From Thermoplasmatales archaeon (GTDB taxonomy: Archaea; Thermoplasmatota; Thermoplasmata; Thermoplasmatales; Thermoplasmataceae): a stretch of 64,000 nucleotides of DNA. The translations under genes were made by a program, and so were the position numbers. Location of the stretch: NCBI GenBank assembly GCA_026127925.1, contig JAJSLM010000007.1, positions 1 through 64,000 of the forward strand. Reading direction: 5' to 3'. The notes under the pieces are model-generated. The model was not told the origin of the DNA, ran no database searches, and saw nothing but the letters and a program-made list of their open reading frames with translations. This document shows positions 8,527-17,379 of this stretch, piece after piece. The first letter of the stretch is position 1. Each line of letters opens with the position of its first letter.

Positions 8527-11226
8527 GTGAATGATGTGGTTGGTAGCGAAAATGGAAATCTTGATCTTGAATTTTTCAAGTCGGAAAAGTTCATTAAGAA
8601 AAAATGTGTAAAATGTGGGAAATATTTCTGGACTAAAGACAAAAATAGGGTAACATGTGGAGATCCTCCGTGCGATTCATATTCCTTTATCGGGAATAGT
8701 CCTGTGAACAAGCAGTATTCTCTGAAGGAGATGAGGGATGCGTTCACTGGTTTTTTCTCGAATACCCACACGTTCATTAAACCTTATCCCGTTGTGCCAA
8801 GATGGCGTGACGATGTTCTCCTGGTAAACGCATCAATTTACGACTTCCAGCCTCATGTAACCTCTGGGAGAGTTAAGCCTCCCGGAAACCCATTGGTAAT
8901 GTCACAACCGTCCATAAGAATGAATGATACTGATCTTGTAGGAGCTACGGGCAGGCATCTTACCAGCTTTGAAATGCTATGTCACGATGCATTCAACTAC
9001 CCGGATAAAAAAGTGTACTGGAAGGAAGAGACAACAAAGTACTGTTATGATTTCCTGACTCTGGGATTAGGCGTAGATTCGAGCCTTATTACGTTCAAGG
9101 AAAAGCCTTGGTCTGGTGGTGGAAACGGAGGAAACGCCTTTGAGGTTTTTGTTTCCGGTCTGGAAGTTGCCACGCTCGTTTTCATGGATCTGAAGGAAGA
9201 TCCAAATGGACCCGTAGAGATCGAAGGAAAGAATTACTCGAAAATGGATATGGAAATTGTCGACACAGGGTATGGGCTTGAACGTCTTGTTTGGTTATCT
9301 CAGGGAACTCCTACAGTTTATCATGCCGTTATGCCTGATGTCATAGACCTTCTTCTAGGGCTCCTAGATGATCGAGAGATAGATAATGAGATTCTATCTG
9401 TTTTTTCAATGGAAGCTGCCTTACTCGAACCCTTTGATAAGAGTGAGTTGCTGGAAAACACACTTGGCAGAATTAGGCGTGAAAAGAAAGACGTTGACAT
9501 GAAAAGGTTGGAAGAATTGTTCGATAAGGCCCGGTCTCTCTTCACACTTGCTGATCATTCTAAATCACTCATGTTTCTCTTTTCGGATTATGTCATTCCC
9601 TCAAATGTGAAGGTAGGGTATCTTTCTCGCCTTCTCATAAGAAGGAGTCTAAGAATGATCGACGACCTTGGCATAAATGTCGATCTGTCAGATCTAATAA
9701 TCAGGCACAGCACAAATATGCAGGATGTAATCCCGAACTTTCCTTCGGAATTTCTCAATACCATAATGCCTATGGAGAAGGCAAAATACAACGATCTTAA
9801 AAGTCGAGCTGTAGGCATTGTCGAGCGTGTGTTCAGAAAGAGCGATACTCTTGCACCAGATGATCTCGTACTCCTGTATGATTCGTTCGGGATAACTCCA
9901 GAACAATCGACAGAGATAGTGAGAGAAAAATTTGGAAAAAATATTGAGATCCCAGGTGATTTCAGTAAACTAGTCGTCTCTATACACGATCAGGGCGTCG
10001 TTTCGAAAGGTGAAGTTGAACACTTTCCAGATATACATACCAGGCCTCTTTATTACGATGACGCATCAATATCGGAATTTACAGCCGTAGTTCTTTATTC
10101 TGAGGGAAATAATATAATCACAAATCAAACCGCTTTCTACCCCGAAGGTGGTGGACAGCCAACTGACACTGGCTATTTTGCCTTAGGAAATAAAAAGGTG
10201 GATATGTTAAAGGCGGAAAAATTCAATCGCAGTATTGTTCACAGGCTCTCGTCGCCTATTCCGCTTGGTACACGCATTTCTGGGCACGTTGATTTCTGGA
10301 GAAGGAGAAGGCTCATGGTTCATCACTCCGCGACGCACCTATTGCTTGGTGTTTGCAGGATGGTCCTCGGAAATCATGTGTGGCAGAGCAGTGTGCAGAA
10401 GGGAACTGAGCACTCAAGACTTGATATAACACATTATGCGAAGATCTCAGATGATGAGATAAGGAAAATTGAGCAAACTTGCCTGAAGTTTATAACCGAA
10501 AACAGAAAAGTAAGAGTTAGAAACATTGAGTGGAACAAGGCCATTGGCACCTTCGGGTTCCGTCTTTTTCAGGGTGGTGTTCCCGATGGAAAGGAAATTA
10601 GGGTTGTGGAAATCGAGGGGGTCGATGTAGAGGGGTGCGGAGGAACACATGTTGCATCAACAGGAGAATTGGGTTTTCTTAAAATTATAAAAACCGAGAC
10701 AGTCCAGGAAGGTATACAGCGTATTATATTCTCGGCTGGCTTTGCGGCTCTTGATTTCGTTGAGGACCAATATTTCACAATCAAGGCCGTGGAAGGCAAG
10801 ATCAAGCCAAGTCCCGAGGGCCTTAAAGATTCATTTTTGAGAATTGTTGACGAAAATATACGCTATAAAAAGGAGCAAACGAAAAACGAAAGAAAATTCA
10901 TAGAAACTCTTATCTCCTCCGCAACCAAGATCCGTATTAATGAACTTGAAGGGATATTCATATCTCATGACCTCGAAGATCGAGACTACAAGCTACTTGT
11001 TTCGGCCATTTTCAAACTCCATCCATTTTCAATCATAAGCAGGAGAACAGGGGATGTTTATGAAACGACAATCATATCCAGTGGCGCAATAGATTGTAAC
11101 AAAATGGCAAATATTCTCAGGTCACGTATCGGTGGAGAAGTATCAGGATCCAACAACAACTCTATCGTTAAGAGTCAAGAATCGATTAATGAAACGTTAA
11201 TAAGGAAGGTTTTCGATTTAGATTGA
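8527..11226 (+). CDS. alaS: Alanyl-tRNA synthetase
   Basis: At 899 aa this is a full-length archaeal AlaRS. It begins with a Cys-containing N-terminal extension (KKKCVKCGKYFWTKD...VTCGDPPC) characteristic of archaeal AlaRS, followed by the class II catalytic core. The editing domain carries HHSATHLLL and the zinc-site GCGGTH, and a C-Ala region ends the protein. It charges tRNA-Ala in the cytoplasm. The start is GTG, 18 nt after the methyltransferase stop. The next gene starts 17 nt after its stop, so translation and membrane genes are probably co-transcribed. Confidence 0.97.
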   Translation: MNDVVGSENGNLDLEFFKSEKFIKKKCVKCGKYFWTKDKNRVTCGDPPCDSYSFIGNSPVNKQYSLKEMRDAFTGFFSNTHTFIKPYPVVPRWRDDVLLVNASIYDFQPHVTSGRVKPPGNPLVMSQPSIRMNDTDLVGATGRHLTSFEMLCHDAFNYPDKKVYWKEETTKYCYDFLTLGLGVDSSLITFKEKPWSGGGNGGNAFEVFVSGLEVATLVFMDLKEDPNGPVEIEGKNYSKMDMEIVDTGYGLERLVWLSQGTPTVYHAVMPDVIDLLLGLLDDREIDNEILSVFSMEAALLEPFDKSELLENTLGRIRREKKDVDMKRLEELFDKARSLFTLADHSKSLMFLFSDYVIPSNVKVGYLSRLLIRRSLRMIDDLGINVDLSDLIIRHSTNMQDVIPNFPSEFLNTIMPMEKAKYNDLKSRAVGIVERVFRKSDTLAPDDLVLLYDSFGITPEQSTEIVREKFGKNIEIPGDFSKLVVSIHDQGVVSKGEVEHFPDIHTRPLYYDDASISEFTAVVLYSEGNNIITNQTAFYPEGGGQPTDTGYFALGNKKVDMLKAEKFNRSIVHRLSSPIPLGTRISGHVDFWRRRRLMVHHSATHLLLGVCRMVLGNHVWQSSVQKGTEHSRLDITHYAKISDDEIRKIEQTCLKFITENRKVRVRNIEWNKAIGTFGFRLFQGGVPDGKEIRVVEIEGVDVEGCGGTHVASTGELGFLKIIKTETVQEGIQRIIFSAGFAALDFVEDQYFTIKAVEGKIKPSPEGLKDSFLRIVDENIRYKKEQTKNERKFIETLISSATKIRINELEGIFISHDLEDRDYKLLVSAIFKLHPFSIISRRTGDVYETTIISSGAIDCNKMANILRSRIGGEVSGSNNNSIVKSQESINETLIRKVFDLD

Positions 11227-11243: not shown

Positions 11244-12962
11244 ATGGATAAGACGGAATCTGAACAAATTGAGAAGTTAGTATGTTCGAAATATAAGTGC
11301 GTGGACAAAAGTTATGACGGAAAGACACTAACTGTCAGCATCGATCATCTCGATTCCTACCCGGACAGCGTATTCGATAATTTGTCCAATGCAGTTGAAA
11401 GAATGGGATTCATTGCATTCACTGTCAAGGGAGATCCAGATTCGATAGTTATTTTGGATAAGTCACCAAAAAGAAAATCGGAGTCCACAATTAAGTTTGC
11501 TCTTGTGGGGGCCACGATTCTTAGTATAATCTATGTAGGTTACACTTACGTTTCTGTGTTCATTGGAGGATCAAATTTTCCAGCGATCCTAGGATACTCA
11601 CTCATTCTTTACACAATACCTATTATAGCAATACTTGGAAGTAGGGAGATTGGCAGGTTTGTCGCACTTCATAAGAATGGTATGAGATATCAATTCCCTG
11701 TGTTCATCCCGAATCCTCTCGGAATGGGGACAATGGGATCCCTTAATTCAAGAAGCGATTCATTCAAAAACAGAAAAGTTATGATCGAGACAGGTGCTTA
11801 TTCACTCATTTTTGGATTGTTCATTTCCATGTTCTTCTATATATTTGGTGCACTTTTTACCATCAGTTCCCTGCATTTTTATTCCATTTCACACTCAACA
11901 AGCAGTATCGGTAGCTCACTCATTTCACAAATGTTTCTCTTTGCTGGTCTCCCGGTATCGAGTTCTCTCACCCCTATAGGTTTTGCGGGCTTTGTTGGTC
12001 TGATAATAACTGCATATAACGCTTTACCGCTTGGATTCCTCGATGGTGGCTTAATTTCATCAGGAATCTTCGGAAAAAATTCTTACATATTGTCCTACGT
12101 CTCTGTTGTGGTAATAGTGGGTTTTGCTATCCTGTATCCACCAGTTCTCGTTCTGGCGGTTTTTGCACTTTTGTTTGGTGCAAAGGGGCCCCAACCATTG
12201 AATAATCTGAGTCACTTGTCAATAAGCGGAAAATCTTTGACAGTGATAGCGTTCATTGTGCTAGTGATTGGGATAGCTCCATTACCCTTGCACGTTCCAT
12301 ACAATACGTTTCATCTATCCGTTCCAGACTCAGATATCCTGATCTACAATAACAGTCAACAGGAGATAAATTTTAACCTTAGCCTCAATAATACTGGCGC
12401 CGTGACAGTATTTCCCTCGTTTGGTGTCACTCCGACTGTAAAGTACGACATTTCCGGAATATCGGATTCTGTCCTTCCAGGAAAGCAATCGTTCTACCAA
12501 GTCACCATATTTACCGGTAAGAATTTATCCTACGGTTTCTCCAACTACACGATTATCGTAAAATCCGGTTCAGCTCAAAGTTCAACCAGTGTTAGGATCC
12601 TTAAGATCAATGTTACGTCTGCCGTTGAATTCACAAATATCCCGAATAGGGTTATCAGTGTTTCCTTATCCAATAAGCAGGTCCAGCCATTCGTGGTTAC
12701 AAGCTACATTCAAAATTCATCCATAAGGATTATGAGTATTGGTGGGCAAAATCTATCGTTTCTATTCTTTCCGTCGAACAAAAGCAGTTCATCTGCGATG
12801 ATTAGTTCTGGTTTTCAAGTACTCTCACTTAACCTTAACATTAGCCCTTCGAGCAGTTACACATTTAGGGTAGAACCGCTGACTGTGCCAGATTATTGGT
12901 ACATTGTCGCATTTAACTCTACTTTCAGTGGGACCTATGAAAAAATCCAAGTGGTCAAATGA
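11244..12962 (+). CDS. Site-2-protease (M50) homologue with destroyed HExxH motif
   Basis: The 572-aa protein has a soluble N-terminus (about 80 aa), a polytopic core, and a C-terminal Ig-like beta-rich region of about 210 aa. In the core, ALHKNGMRYQFPVFIPNPLGMGTMG and NALPLGFLDGG (Asn259, Asp267) are the conserved M50/S2P landmarks. The zinc motif HExxH should fall at residues 134-138 but reads REIGR. The codons are AGG and AGG, so two independent His-to-Arg changes are present and a single read error does not explain them. A non-catalytic S2P-like chaperone or regulator is therefore more likely than an active protease. Its stop overlaps the next gene by 4 nt. Confidence 0.82.
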   Translation: MDKTESEQIEKLVCSKYKCVDKSYDGKTLTVSIDHLDSYPDSVFDNLSNAVERMGFIAFTVKGDPDSIVILDKSPKRKSESTIKFALVGATILSIIYVGYTYVSVFIGGSNFPAILGYSLILYTIPIIAILGSREIGRFVALHKNGMRYQFPVFIPNPLGMGTMGSLNSRSDSFKNRKVMIETGAYSLIFGLFISMFFYIFGALFTISSLHFYSISHSTSSIGSSLISQMFLFAGLPVSSSLTPIGFAGFVGLIITAYNALPLGFLDGGLISSGIFGKNSYILSYVSVVVIVGFAILYPPVLVLAVFALLFGAKGPQPLNNLSHLSISGKSLTVIAFIVLVIGIAPLPLHVPYNTFHLSVPDSDILIYNNSQQEINFNLSLNNTGAVTVFPSFGVTPTVKYDISGISDSVLPGKQSFYQVTIFTGKNLSYGFSNYTIIVKSGSAQSSTSVRILKINVTSAVEFTNIPNRVISVSLSNKQVQPFVVTSYIQNSSIRIMSIGGQNLSFLFFPSNKSSSSAMISSGFQVLSLNLNISPSSSYTFRVEPLTVPDYWYIVAFNSTFSGTYEKIQVVK

Positions 12963-14032
12963 GCAAGAAAAATGTTGGATTTTTGGTGAATCCCATTGCA
13001 GGATGCGGCCAATTTTTTAACATGAAGGGATCCGATGGTCTCTCTCTCAAAGATTGCCCTGAGTCTGTATCTTTAAGCCTGGCTGAAAGATTCCTTGACC
13101 TGATACCTGAAACAAACGTAACCTATTACACTGCAAGCGGAAACATGGGTGCAAAGGCATTTAACAAGAAACCATTGGAAAATTTTCATGTTATCTATAA
13201 TGCCCCTGAGATTACATCTAGGGCTGATACTCAGAACTTTGTTTGTGCGCTTGGGGATTATCCCATAGACATCCTTGTTTTCTTTGGGGGGGACGGGACA
13301 GCAAAGGATCTTGTCGATGCGAGAGTGGATATACCAGTCCTCGGTGTCCCAGCAGGAACTAAGATGTTTAGTTCAGTGTTCTCGATATCCGTAGAAGATG
13401 CTGTTTCTGTGTTAAGATCGCTTCTTTCCCAAGACGAAGGGACAATCGTTAGCGGGGACGTAATATATGTTGATGAAAATAAGTACTCTGCAGGAAATCT
13501 TGTTATGTCCTTGTATGGTCAGTTAAAAATACCTTCTTCTCCTATGATCGTTACGGCATGTAAAGGGGAATATCCAGATAGTAATATTATGGACATAGTT
13601 GAATATATAGAAGAAATAATAAAGCAGGATGTCAATTATATCGTGGGTCCAGGTTCTACATGCCTTGAAATAAAAAAATTATATGGCGATGATGGAACTA
13701 CATTCGGTTTCGATCTTATTAAAAATGGTAAAATCGTAGCAAGAGATCTATCCGAAAAGGAAATTTATGAAGCTGAAGCCGATCCCACTAAAATCGTCAT
13801 TTCCCCACTTGGAGGTCAGGGTTTTCTCATTGGGCGAGGAAACAAACAATTATCAGCGAGAGTGATAAAAAAAATAGGTTTTGAAAATTTCATTGTTGTT
13901 TCTTCACCAGAAAAACTTAATGGTATCAATTATCTCTATATAGACATCGGCAACTTTGATTTTACCATCCCGAGTTACGTAAGAGTGCTATATGGATATG
14001 GCACATTCAAATTGGTAAAACTTCGGAGATAA
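12959..14032 (+). CDS. COG3199 ATP-NAD kinase-like protein
   Basis: The 357-aa protein begins KKNVGFLVNPIAGCGQ and has the diacylglycerol/NAD-kinase superfamily motif FFGGDGTAKDLVD followed by PVLGVPAGTKMFSSVF. This is the arrangement of the archaeal COG3199 group, predicted to bind ATP and possibly phosphorylate NAD. The C-terminal half (VGPGSTCLEI, SPLGGQGFLIGRGNKQLS) is also typical. It overlaps the S2P-like gene by 4 nt (ATGA), implying translational coupling. NAD kinase activity is inferred from the family only. Confidence 0.82.
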   Translation: MSKKNVGFLVNPIAGCGQFFNMKGSDGLSLKDCPESVSLSLAERFLDLIPETNVTYYTASGNMGAKAFNKKPLENFHVIYNAPEITSRADTQNFVCALGDYPIDILVFFGGDGTAKDLVDARVDIPVLGVPAGTKMFSSVFSISVEDAVSVLRSLLSQDEGTIVSGDVIYVDENKYSAGNLVMSLYGQLKIPSSPMIVTACKGEYPDSNIMDIVEYIEEIIKQDVNYIVGPGSTCLEIKKLYGDDGTTFGFDLIKNGKIVARDLSEKEIYEAEADPTKIVISPLGGQGFLIGRGNKQLSARVIKKIGFENFIVVSSPEKLNGINYLYIDIGNFDFTIPSYVRVLYGYGTFKLVKLRR

Positions 14033-14349: not shown

Positions 14350-16089
14350 TTGGTTAGAAGCAAAACTAAGGTAAAAGGATTCTCAGATCTGAGCAAAATG
14401 ATCAAGCGCTCACCAAAATGGTGGCAGCTCTTGATCCTGGTGTCTGTTATTTTGGTAGTAGATTATTTGCTTATTAGAAACGTTATTTTTATACTATTCG
14501 GCATTCTTGGATCATATGCTTTGTTAATATTATTCGATGTATTTTTTATTAGAATTAGCCGTACATATTTCCCGTTTCGTAGGATTATGTACCTAGATTT
14601 TTTGGCTTTTCTTATTTCATCTGCTTTCTTCTGGATACTCTACTATTCTCGCATATTTCAGAATCTGGAAGTTATCCTACTTCTGTCTATATCCTCCGCA
14701 GCTCTTCTTCGCGTCCTAATCCTCGCCATATATTATTCGGATAAGGTTTCAAAGTTAACGATACCTACACTCAACTACACATTTTCATCAATGATAGTTC
14801 TGACAATCATCTATCACAGCTGGTATGTCCTTATTCCAGCAATAATTTCTTCAATAATATATATTGTCGCTGGCATAATTTTCATAAAAACTACAACGCA
14901 TAAATTTTCAAAAGAGTACGGTGAAAGCGCAACAAAGATAATAAATCTGTTTTTAAATTATAATAACAACCATAAATATATGAACACAGGAATTAACTTT
15001 TTTTCCAAGTTGTACACGAATACGAGATCAGTGCCCGTGAAGACAATTGACGTAATTAAGAAAGATGGTGGCCGTCTCGTAACCATGGTTTTCCCCTACG
15101 TTCACCCGGGTCCGTTTGGTAAATTAGGATCAAGTGATCTTCCTATAAGATTGCAAACAAAACTTCACGAAATCCAGGCCGATCTCATGGTTTTTCACAC
15201 AACAACAACAAACAGTAACAATTGTGCTGGAGAAGAAGACCTTGATGCTATTGCAAGAAGTGTAAAGAAGTCCCTCAAGAAAATGAGTTACACAACGACG
15301 ATCTCTCCATTCAGAAGATTTGAGTACAACAACTTCTCTCTGGGGATTCAGAAATTTGGCAATTTTGCTTTCGGAGCAATAATACCTGAACAGACCTCAT
15401 TTGATGATATAAAATTGAACGAAGGACTAAGCGTGATAAAGCATGTTGAAAGCAAAGCAGTTAAACAATTTGCTCTCATCGATGGGCAAAATTTCTTTGT
15501 AGAAAAGGGTCAGGAACTTGATAACTGCGAAGGGATGGGCCAGGCTTTTGTGGAAGAGCTCGGAATACTGTCCGCTGATTCGCCAGCTCGTTTAGGTTAT
15601 TATCGCATAAATGAGCCATTACCTGATCTGGGGACAATGGGAATTCAAAGCCTTGTTACTGAGAGTAACGGCAGATTTTATGCCATTACCCTTACGGATT
15701 CCAACAACATCCTGAGAGAAGTTGTAGAGGCAGCACGAGACATCCTAAAAAATGAAATTGCGGACCTAGAGATATATACCACAGATAACCATGCATTAAA
15801 CGCAAATAATCTTGATTCAAATCCACTAGGAAAGAGCAGCGAAATCAATACGGTAGTCAAGCTAATTGTTAAATCAGTGAGGCTAGCTAAAGGTAATATC
15901 GATGATGTTAAAATTGGCGCAAGTACTGTTGCAGCTAGAGTTAGAATGGGTGACGAGAATGCGTATCAGAGACTAATAGATTCTGTTTTCAGATCGCTCA
16001 AAGCTGCGAAATATTCCATTATTCTTACGATCCCATCCAGCATCGTTGCGTCAATAGCGGTTTTTAAGTTTCTATTGCCAATTTTATGA
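14350..16089 (+). CDS. DUF2070 archaeal membrane protein
   Basis: The 579-aa protein has an N-terminal membrane domain (about six to seven hydrophobic segments over residues 25-180), a large soluble domain (about 220-550) and a final hydrophobic segment at the C-terminus. The soluble part contains the conserved VFPYVHPGPFGKLGSSDLP and HTTTTNSNNCAGEEDLDA blocks of the archaeal DUF2070 family. The His, Asp and Glu residues in these blocks look like a metal or catalytic site, but no activity is established. The start is TTG, with a TATA-like box about 25 nt upstream. Confidence 0.82.
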   Translation: MVRSKTKVKGFSDLSKMIKRSPKWWQLLILVSVILVVDYLLIRNVIFILFGILGSYALLILFDVFFIRISRTYFPFRRIMYLDFLAFLISSAFFWILYYSRIFQNLEVILLLSISSAALLRVLILAIYYSDKVSKLTIPTLNYTFSSMIVLTIIYHSWYVLIPAIISSIIYIVAGIIFIKTTTHKFSKEYGESATKIINLFLNYNNNHKYMNTGINFFSKLYTNTRSVPVKTIDVIKKDGGRLVTMVFPYVHPGPFGKLGSSDLPIRLQTKLHEIQADLMVFHTTTTNSNNCAGEEDLDAIARSVKKSLKKMSYTTTISPFRRFEYNNFSLGIQKFGNFAFGAIIPEQTSFDDIKLNEGLSVIKHVESKAVKQFALIDGQNFFVEKGQELDNCEGMGQAFVEELGILSADSPARLGYYRINEPLPDLGTMGIQSLVTESNGRFYAITLTDSNNILREVVEAARDILKNEIADLEIYTTDNHALNANNLDSNPLGKSSEINTVVKLIVKSVRLAKGNIDDVKIGASTVAARVRMGDENAYQRLIDSVFRSLKAAKYSIILTIPSSIVASIAVFKFLLPIL

Positions 16090-16222: not shown

Positions 16223-17379
16223 ATGTTCAACGCTTACAGATTCCGAATGTACCCTAATAAAGAATAAAAGATTCTTCTGAAAAAGCACTTCGGTTCATGC
16301 CGCTTTGTTCGGGGCCATTTCCTTGATCTTCGGAATAGACAGTATGTGGAAACAGGAAAGAGGATGAGTTGCAAGAGCATGCAGTCCCTTCTCCCTTCAT
16401 TGAAAAGAAGAATGAATGGCTGAGTGATGTCAATTCGCAGAGTCTTCAGGTAGTGCTTCAAAATCTTGACATGGCATATAGTAGATTCTTCAGAAATATT
16501 GCTACTTATCCTAATTTCAAGAAAAAGAAAGCTGGAGGTTCATTCACAGTCCCTCAGCATTTCTCCATCAATGACAACCATCTATCGATCCTGAAGTTCA
16601 AGACTCCATTGTGTTTCTTCATGCGCAGGAACATTGAAGGCGAGATGAGGAGTTTCACCGTGACAAAGACACCATCAGAAAAACATTATGTTTCAATACT
16701 TGCTGGGAGGGGGAAAGAATACCTGAACCTGTAGAGATTGAAGTAGTCACGTCTATTGGTATCGATGTGGGCATCAAGTCATTTTCCACTGCTTCGGACG
16801 GAATTAAAATTCACAAACCAAAGAATCTCAAAAAATCAGAAAAAAAACTTGTCTTGTTACAGAAGAGGCTATCCAGAAAGCAAAAAGGATCAAAGAATCG
16901 CAATAAGGCAAGGATAAAAGTTGCAAAGACACAGGAACATATATCGAATCAGAGAATCGATTTCCACAACAAACTCTCGGATGCGGATGTTCAATGCATA
17001 CGACGCCGTAATAATGGAAGATCTGAATGTAACCGGAATGATGAAGAATCATAATCTTGCAAGGAGCATATCTGATGCAGGATGGTCCTCTTTCATGATA
17101 ATGCTCAAAACCAAGGCAATGTTAAGAGGGAAGAACATAATAGAGATCGGAAGATTCGATCCTTCATCGAAGATGTGTTCAAAGTGCGGGAACATAAAGC
17201 ATGATCTGAAACTATCAGATCGCACATATCACTGCAATGAATGCGATCCCATCATCGACCGTGATCTGAATGCCGCAATAAACATAAAGAAATTTGGCCT
17301 CATACAGATAGGGGTACCCACGGACAGCGGGGGAAGTTACGCCTATGGAGATATCTCTCGCGGGATGCCTGATTCGTGA
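16223..17379 (+). pseudogene. Broken TnpB (RuvC-like nuclease of IS605 family)
   Basis: Translation begins MFNAYRFRMYPNKE at 16223 and hits a stop after 14 codons. The protein then continues in other frames: MQEHAVPSP... (16369-16734), IGIDVGIKSFSTAS (about 16758-17054), and YDAVIMEDLNVTGM to the end (to 17379). All three RuvC acidic positions can still be found: Asp in GIDVGI, Glu in IMEDLN and Asp in DRDLNAAINI. The zinc ribbon CSKCG...CNEC is also there. At least one internal stop and two frameshifts make the intact RNA-guided nuclease impossible without recoding. Confidence 0.85.

Follow-up and report, generated by a model that had tools for sequence, protein, structure and literature searches.

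The gene at positions 11244 to 12962 on the forward strand of contig JAJSLM010000007.1 raises the question of whether a site-2-protease (S2P) homologue that has lost its zinc-binding motif is still a working protein, and, if so, of what kind. In the stretch analysed here (positions 1 to 64,000 of the contig, hereafter the window), this pseudo-site-2-protease (pseudo-S2P) gene forms a frame of 572 codons with an ATG start and no internal stop. Residues 1-78 (11244-11477) make up a soluble alpha/beta domain, which aligns with the corresponding domain of active relatives; residues 79-350 (11478-12293) form a multi-pass membrane core homologous to that of M50/S2P enzymes, and residues 351-572 (12294-12959) a beta-rich C-terminal domain with weak Ig/CARDB-like matches. 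Hydropathy, the basic residues in the loop past residue 143 and the frequency of N-glycosylation sequons in the C-terminal domain, twice that expected from composition (4.5 against 2.2 per 100 residues), suggest a topology with the head in the cytosol and the beta domain outside. The AlphaFold2 model, computed from the window protein and one relative, reached a mean pLDDT of 36, and its only usable portion is the N-terminal domain, with pLDDT values of about 56-82 up to residue ~70.

At the position of the HExxH motif, residues 134-138 (11643-11657) read REIGR, encoded by AGG GAG ATT GGC AGG. Both zinc-ligand histidines, 134 and 138, are indeed replaced by arginine (AGG codons in each case), as the original prediction held, and Glu135 is retained. 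The two elements it had described as kept are also present, namely the second signature NALPLGFLDGG with Asp267 (residues 259-269, 12018-12050) and the loop HKNGMRYQFPVF (residues 143-154). Directly after LDGG, the histidine of the active forms (LDGGH) is replaced by Leu270. Two further positions set the protein apart from its active relatives: Lys84 (11493-11495), which is Asn in all of them and Lys or Arg in 50 of 52 pseudo-S2P representatives, and Tyr149 (11688-11690), which is Ala in nearly all of them and Tyr in 52 of 52 representatives.

The window protein scores only 19.6 bits against the Pfam M50 model, below the cut-off of 27.2, and the match covers the LDGG half only. When profiles are compared (hhalign), however, the whole core aligns with that of the active relatives with an E value of 6.9e-77 over 555 columns, and 29 of 30 pseudo-clade members match Pfam M50 at E<0.1. 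Together with a core that carries the N-x-x-P-x-G-x-x-D-G-G second motif, these alignments identify the protein as an M50/S2P homologue by descent. The structurally characterized MjS2P (MJ0392, PDB 3B4R) and RseP (7W6X/7W6Y) align with the active profile over the HExxH and DGG motifs, and no match to either was obtained with the pseudo-S2P profile at E<=1. From the MjS2P alignment over these motifs, residues 134, 138 and 267 would correspond to the three metal-ligand positions and residue 135 to the catalytic base. The pseudo clade has thus lost the HExxH motif with both of its zinc-ligand histidines, and has kept the third ligand, Asp267, in 52 of 52 representatives. Four M50-type genes are found in the window's own genome, and the remaining three carry HExxH.

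To see how widely the altered motif is shared, orthologues were sought in 117 genomes of the order Thermoplasmatales, many of them drafts, 77 of which belong to the window's family, the Thermoplasmataceae. All but one of these 77 genomes (76) contain an orthologue, the exception (G112) being a 79%-complete draft. The pattern [RK]-E-x-x-[RK] occurs in 75/75 family genomes with a readable motif, always with Glu135 and Asp267; this count comprises 76 aligned sequences from 74 genomes plus the frameshifted G096, read by eye, while G103 is N-masked at the motif. A second genome of the same genus (86% identity) carries an identical REIGR, and no intermediate between HExxH and [RK]E..[RK] was found among the aligned proteins. 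A technical origin of the motif through sequencing, assembly or frame errors, of which the original prediction had named a local assembly error as a possible refutation, is contradicted by the same-genus REIGR and by the same residue pattern in 75 independently assembled genomes, complete single-contig ones included, and its probability is negligible. The two genus g17 genomes G105 (L014, L036) and G106 (L017, L037) apparently contain two pseudo-S2P copies each; the second copy of G106 resembles genus g9, and bin mixing is possible.

The gene could alternatively be a relaxed or decaying paralogue that is kept by its operon position only. Such an interpretation could draw on the pseudo clade evolving ~2.7 times faster than a short, HExxH-bearing family paralogue (described below), and on the score under the Pfam cut-off. 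Pairwise dN/dS values (Nei-Gojobori, dS 0.15-2), however, speak for the opposite: the membrane core of the pseudo clade has a median of 0.054 (34 pairs), close to the 0.049 of the active relatives' core (6 pairs), and the N- and C-terminal domains of this clade have medians of 0.103 and 0.095, respectively. The orthologous frames, 560-615 residues long, are intact nearly everywhere in the family, and the four ancestral active-site positions are invariant in a core of only 37% mean identity. Decay, the other refutation named at the outset, is therefore very improbable, and the same 75 family genomes with the same-genus REIGR contradict it as well, as they do a chance origin of REIGR. The original claim of a functional pseudoprotease under purifying selection is instead supported by the motif fixation and the low core dN/dS, the two checks that had been proposed for it: catalytic residues are lost while the rest is under purifying selection. 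We consider it very probable, from the sequences compared, that the protein is non-proteolytic yet functional.

Could it nevertheless still be an enzyme? Peptide-bond hydrolysis might proceed through Glu135 and Asp267 and a metal or cofactor site that is displaced or of another kind, since no member has lost the catalytic Glu or the third-ligand Asp, and since active sites have migrated in some other pseudoenzymes, a general caution raised in PMC10211241. The loss of histidines speaks against this. His270 is found in 53 of 53 aligned HExxH proteins (family paralogues, sister families and the rest of the class) and His315 in all 46 HExxH representatives, and the pseudo clade has lost all four histidines that are invariant in the active clade (134, 138, 270 and 315). 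Nor does its core conserve any His or Cys from which a zinc site could be rebuilt, the only conserved His being that at position 350 (83%). In addition, Arg or Lys placed exactly at two metal-ligand positions would repel a cation, and a cryptic hydrolase therefore seems quite improbable.

The residues that took their place are conserved in a distinctive manner. Among 52 pseudo-S2P representatives of <80% identity (core columns 60-325, Lys and Arg merged), invariant columns number only 17 of 266 in the core, and they include all four ancestral active-site positions (hypergeometric probability about 1.2e-5). A fairer control is restricted to the 60 core columns that active enzymes conserve; only 13 of them stay invariant in the pseudo clade, and the probability is then about 1.5e-3. 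Across the full length of the protein, basic residues reach a frequency of 96% or more in columns 84, 134 and 138 and in no others, and only columns 135 and 267 are entirely acidic. We favour, with some reserve, the explanation that this cluster of charges stands in for the metal: after the zinc-ligand histidines had changed to Arg or Lys, with the catalytic Glu and the third-ligand Asp staying in place, the two basic side chains would supply the double charge formerly carried by Zn2+. They would do so within a buried network of salt bridges (Lys84, Arg134, Glu135, Arg138 and Asp267) that would lock the former substrate cleft in a conformation unable to hydrolyse.

The same three near-invariant basic core residues (84, 134 and 138) could alternatively mean that the protein has been neofunctionalised, with the old active site binding an anionic ligand (phosphate, a lipid head group or a nucleotide) or joining a transport or proton path, unrelated to proteolysis or to any paralogue. 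The pseudo-specific invariant residues Tyr102, Tyr149 and Gly249 and the long stem branch of the clade (1.3-1.8 changes per site) are in keeping with this possibility, as is the frequent neighbourhood of a COG3199 gene, which has a nucleotide/lipid-kinase-like fold. On the other hand, an open anion site would explain the invariance of Glu135 and Asp267 less well than internal pairing does, and several genera either dispense with the COG3199 gene or carry it elsewhere. We thus regard neofunctionalisation as an unlikely, though serious, competitor of the salt-bridge interpretation.

The COG3199-type NAD-kinase-like gene itself (12959-14032, forward strand) starts with an ATG at 12959 and overlaps the pseudo-S2P stop by 4 nt, and the two genes may be co-transcribed in the window's genome. 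It adjoins the pseudo-S2P gene in most genera of the family but not in all, being unlinked in genera g2, g5, g13 and g15 and absent from all three g11 genomes. In the sister families f2, f3 and f6, it is present but lies away from the active enzyme, and there is no pseudo form. The conserved linkage and co-occurrence expected of a functional module were thus not found. An obligate partnership of the two proteins is ruled out by the unlinked genera and the absence from g11, and the pseudo-S2P does not need COG3199. Of the coupling originally proposed, the 4-nt overlap stands, while the association has turned out to be family-specific and dispensable. Further downstream, positions 14350-16089 encode a DUF2070 membrane protein (E 1.4e-115), a frequent same-strand neighbour 3′ of the COG3199 gene family-wide. 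They are followed at 16369-17379 by a split TnpB-like transposon gene in three short overlapping frames, the last with a Cas12f1-like TNB domain (E 1.4e-18), which resembles a broken IS200/IS605-type element.

The upstream neighbour is more informative about where the zinc site was lost. The gene alaS (8527-11226, forward strand) ends 17 nt upstream of the pseudo-S2P gene and serves as a synteny marker, being conserved next to both the pseudo and the active loci: in sister families f2-f6, a same-length HExxH protein lies directly downstream of alaS, just as the pseudo form does here. HExxH is also present in 20 of 20 further class members sampled outside the order. In trees built without the motif columns, all proteins with the basic motif group in a single clade (SH-aLRT 100; bootstrap/SH-aLRT 100/100), which is nested with the enzymes of the order. 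Because of the alaS-linked HExxH forms in the sister families, the HExxH in all sampled class members and the single clade, we infer that the zinc site was lost once, on the Thermoplasmataceae stem and at the ancestral locus. Relatives with an intact HExxH, which had been thought to threaten the pseudoprotease claim, do exist at the alaS-linked loci of the sister families; they refute nothing, and instead date the loss. The alaS-M50 neighbourhood is old: the two genes are adjacent in the sister families and ~600 bases apart in class members L129, L133 and L134.

The M50 enzymes of f2-f6 and of other Thermoplasmata (HExxH, ~490-770 residues) have the same domain order as the pseudo-S2P, and those of f2-f6, within the order, share its alaS neighbour. 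They differ in keeping HExxH, LDGGH, Asn84 and His315, which the pseudo clade has lost all together. Profile alignment further shows that the active long forms too possess the C-terminal beta domain. The fused external domain of the original prediction is thus present and predicted to be external, but it is not a new fusion, since the ancestral active form has one.

The closest intact M50 relative within the family is a short HExxH paralogue (~365 residues), which forms its own clade and ends after the membrane core, lacking the beta domain. Its sequences were read in 21 family genomes, and each family genome with a completeness of 90% or higher yields two or more matches. Neither this paralogue nor the strictly basic nature of the replacements, with strict retention of the acidic partners, had been part of the original prediction. 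The copy in the window's own genome (364 residues, G000:C6:79372-, L002) adjoins a NurA-domain gene, and at about half of the short-paralogue loci read (12 loci, including L002:180-1256), a homologue of that gene is the neighbour. An AU test of whether the pseudo and short clades are sisters gave a p of 0.665. In a mirror-tree comparison, the partial correlation between the pseudo and short proteins was 0.53 given alaS, with that between the short protein and alaS equally high.

These observations point to a duplication of an ancestral M50 enzyme that was encoded behind alaS and combined a head in the cytosol with a membrane core and a C-terminal beta domain outside. At the ancestral locus, one copy retained the external domain but lost its zinc site; the second copy, placed elsewhere, lost the external domain and retained HExxH. 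Apart from the exact time of the duplication, this scenario can be read from the sequences themselves. Taken together, the best explanation, to which we assign a probability of roughly 0.8, is that the window encodes a catalytically dead but selectively maintained pseudo-S2P of the Thermoplasmataceae, split off by duplication.

The pseudo-S2P would probably act as a receptor or adaptor to which membrane clients bind without being cleaved. It would still accommodate transmembrane segments in its cleft and sense the outside through the beta domain, and it would present clients to a partner, withhold them from it or regulate it allosterically. Whether substrate binding has been retained is uncertain, given the 2.7-fold faster evolution and the alteration of much of the substrate-side signature. 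The most plausible partner would be the short active paralogue of the same genomes, itself devoid of an external domain; this pairing, based on co-occurrence and shared ancestry, is put forward tentatively. More doubtful still is the full picture in which the family has split one intramembrane protease into an external-domain receptor, with a salt bridge for zinc, and a bare protease, the dead half gating substrates in trans.

If true, this would be an archaeal counterpart of iRhom- or EGY3-type control and the first pseudo-S2P in which charge replaces metal. The strict [RK]E..[RK] plus Asp pattern amounts to a testable structural prediction, namely protein charges for a metal. With its single, dated loss, a sister enzyme still intact at this locus in neighbouring families and a live paralogue in the same genomes, the family offers a clean natural experiment in how a metalloprotease becomes a regulator. 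These genes would also be misannotated if automatic pipelines labelled them M50 peptidases. A survey of one acidophilic Thermoplasmatales genome lists S2P of family M50 without further comment (PMC10354927). In the open-access literature searched, we found no description of archaeal or M50 pseudoproteases, although an earlier mention elsewhere is possible, and no experimental work on the pseudo-S2P; a review of inactive metallopeptidases does not mention M50, site-2 or EGY3.

The known inactive intramembrane proteases that regulate membrane proteins, iRhoms and plant EGY3, are eukaryotic, and MjS2P and RseP, the S2P structures used above, differ from the pseudo-S2P in being active metalloproteases. 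A 2017 paper cited in PMC9263693 announces in its title a dimeric architecture for an S2P. The iRhoms are inactive rhomboid homologues that regulate the fate of clients in the membrane (PMC3149277), but they belong to a serine (rhomboid) protease family, and the comparison is by analogy only. EGY3, found in Arabidopsis and other plants, is closer, being a chloroplast S2P pseudoprotease without HExxH that is reported to stabilise other chloroplast proteins (PMC9355673, PMC10978774). Like the archaeal protein, it has lost HExxH, is conserved and shares a membrane system with active relatives. Orthology between the two is unlikely in view of the single archaeal origin in the trees, and the loss in the plant chloroplast protein was probably independent of the archaeal one. 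Unlike EGY3, the archaeal pseudo-S2P has an external beta domain and occupies the ancestral locus behind alaS. Compared with the S2P pseudoproteases known so far, what appears to be new is an archaeal, family-wide form with a charge-substituted zinc site.
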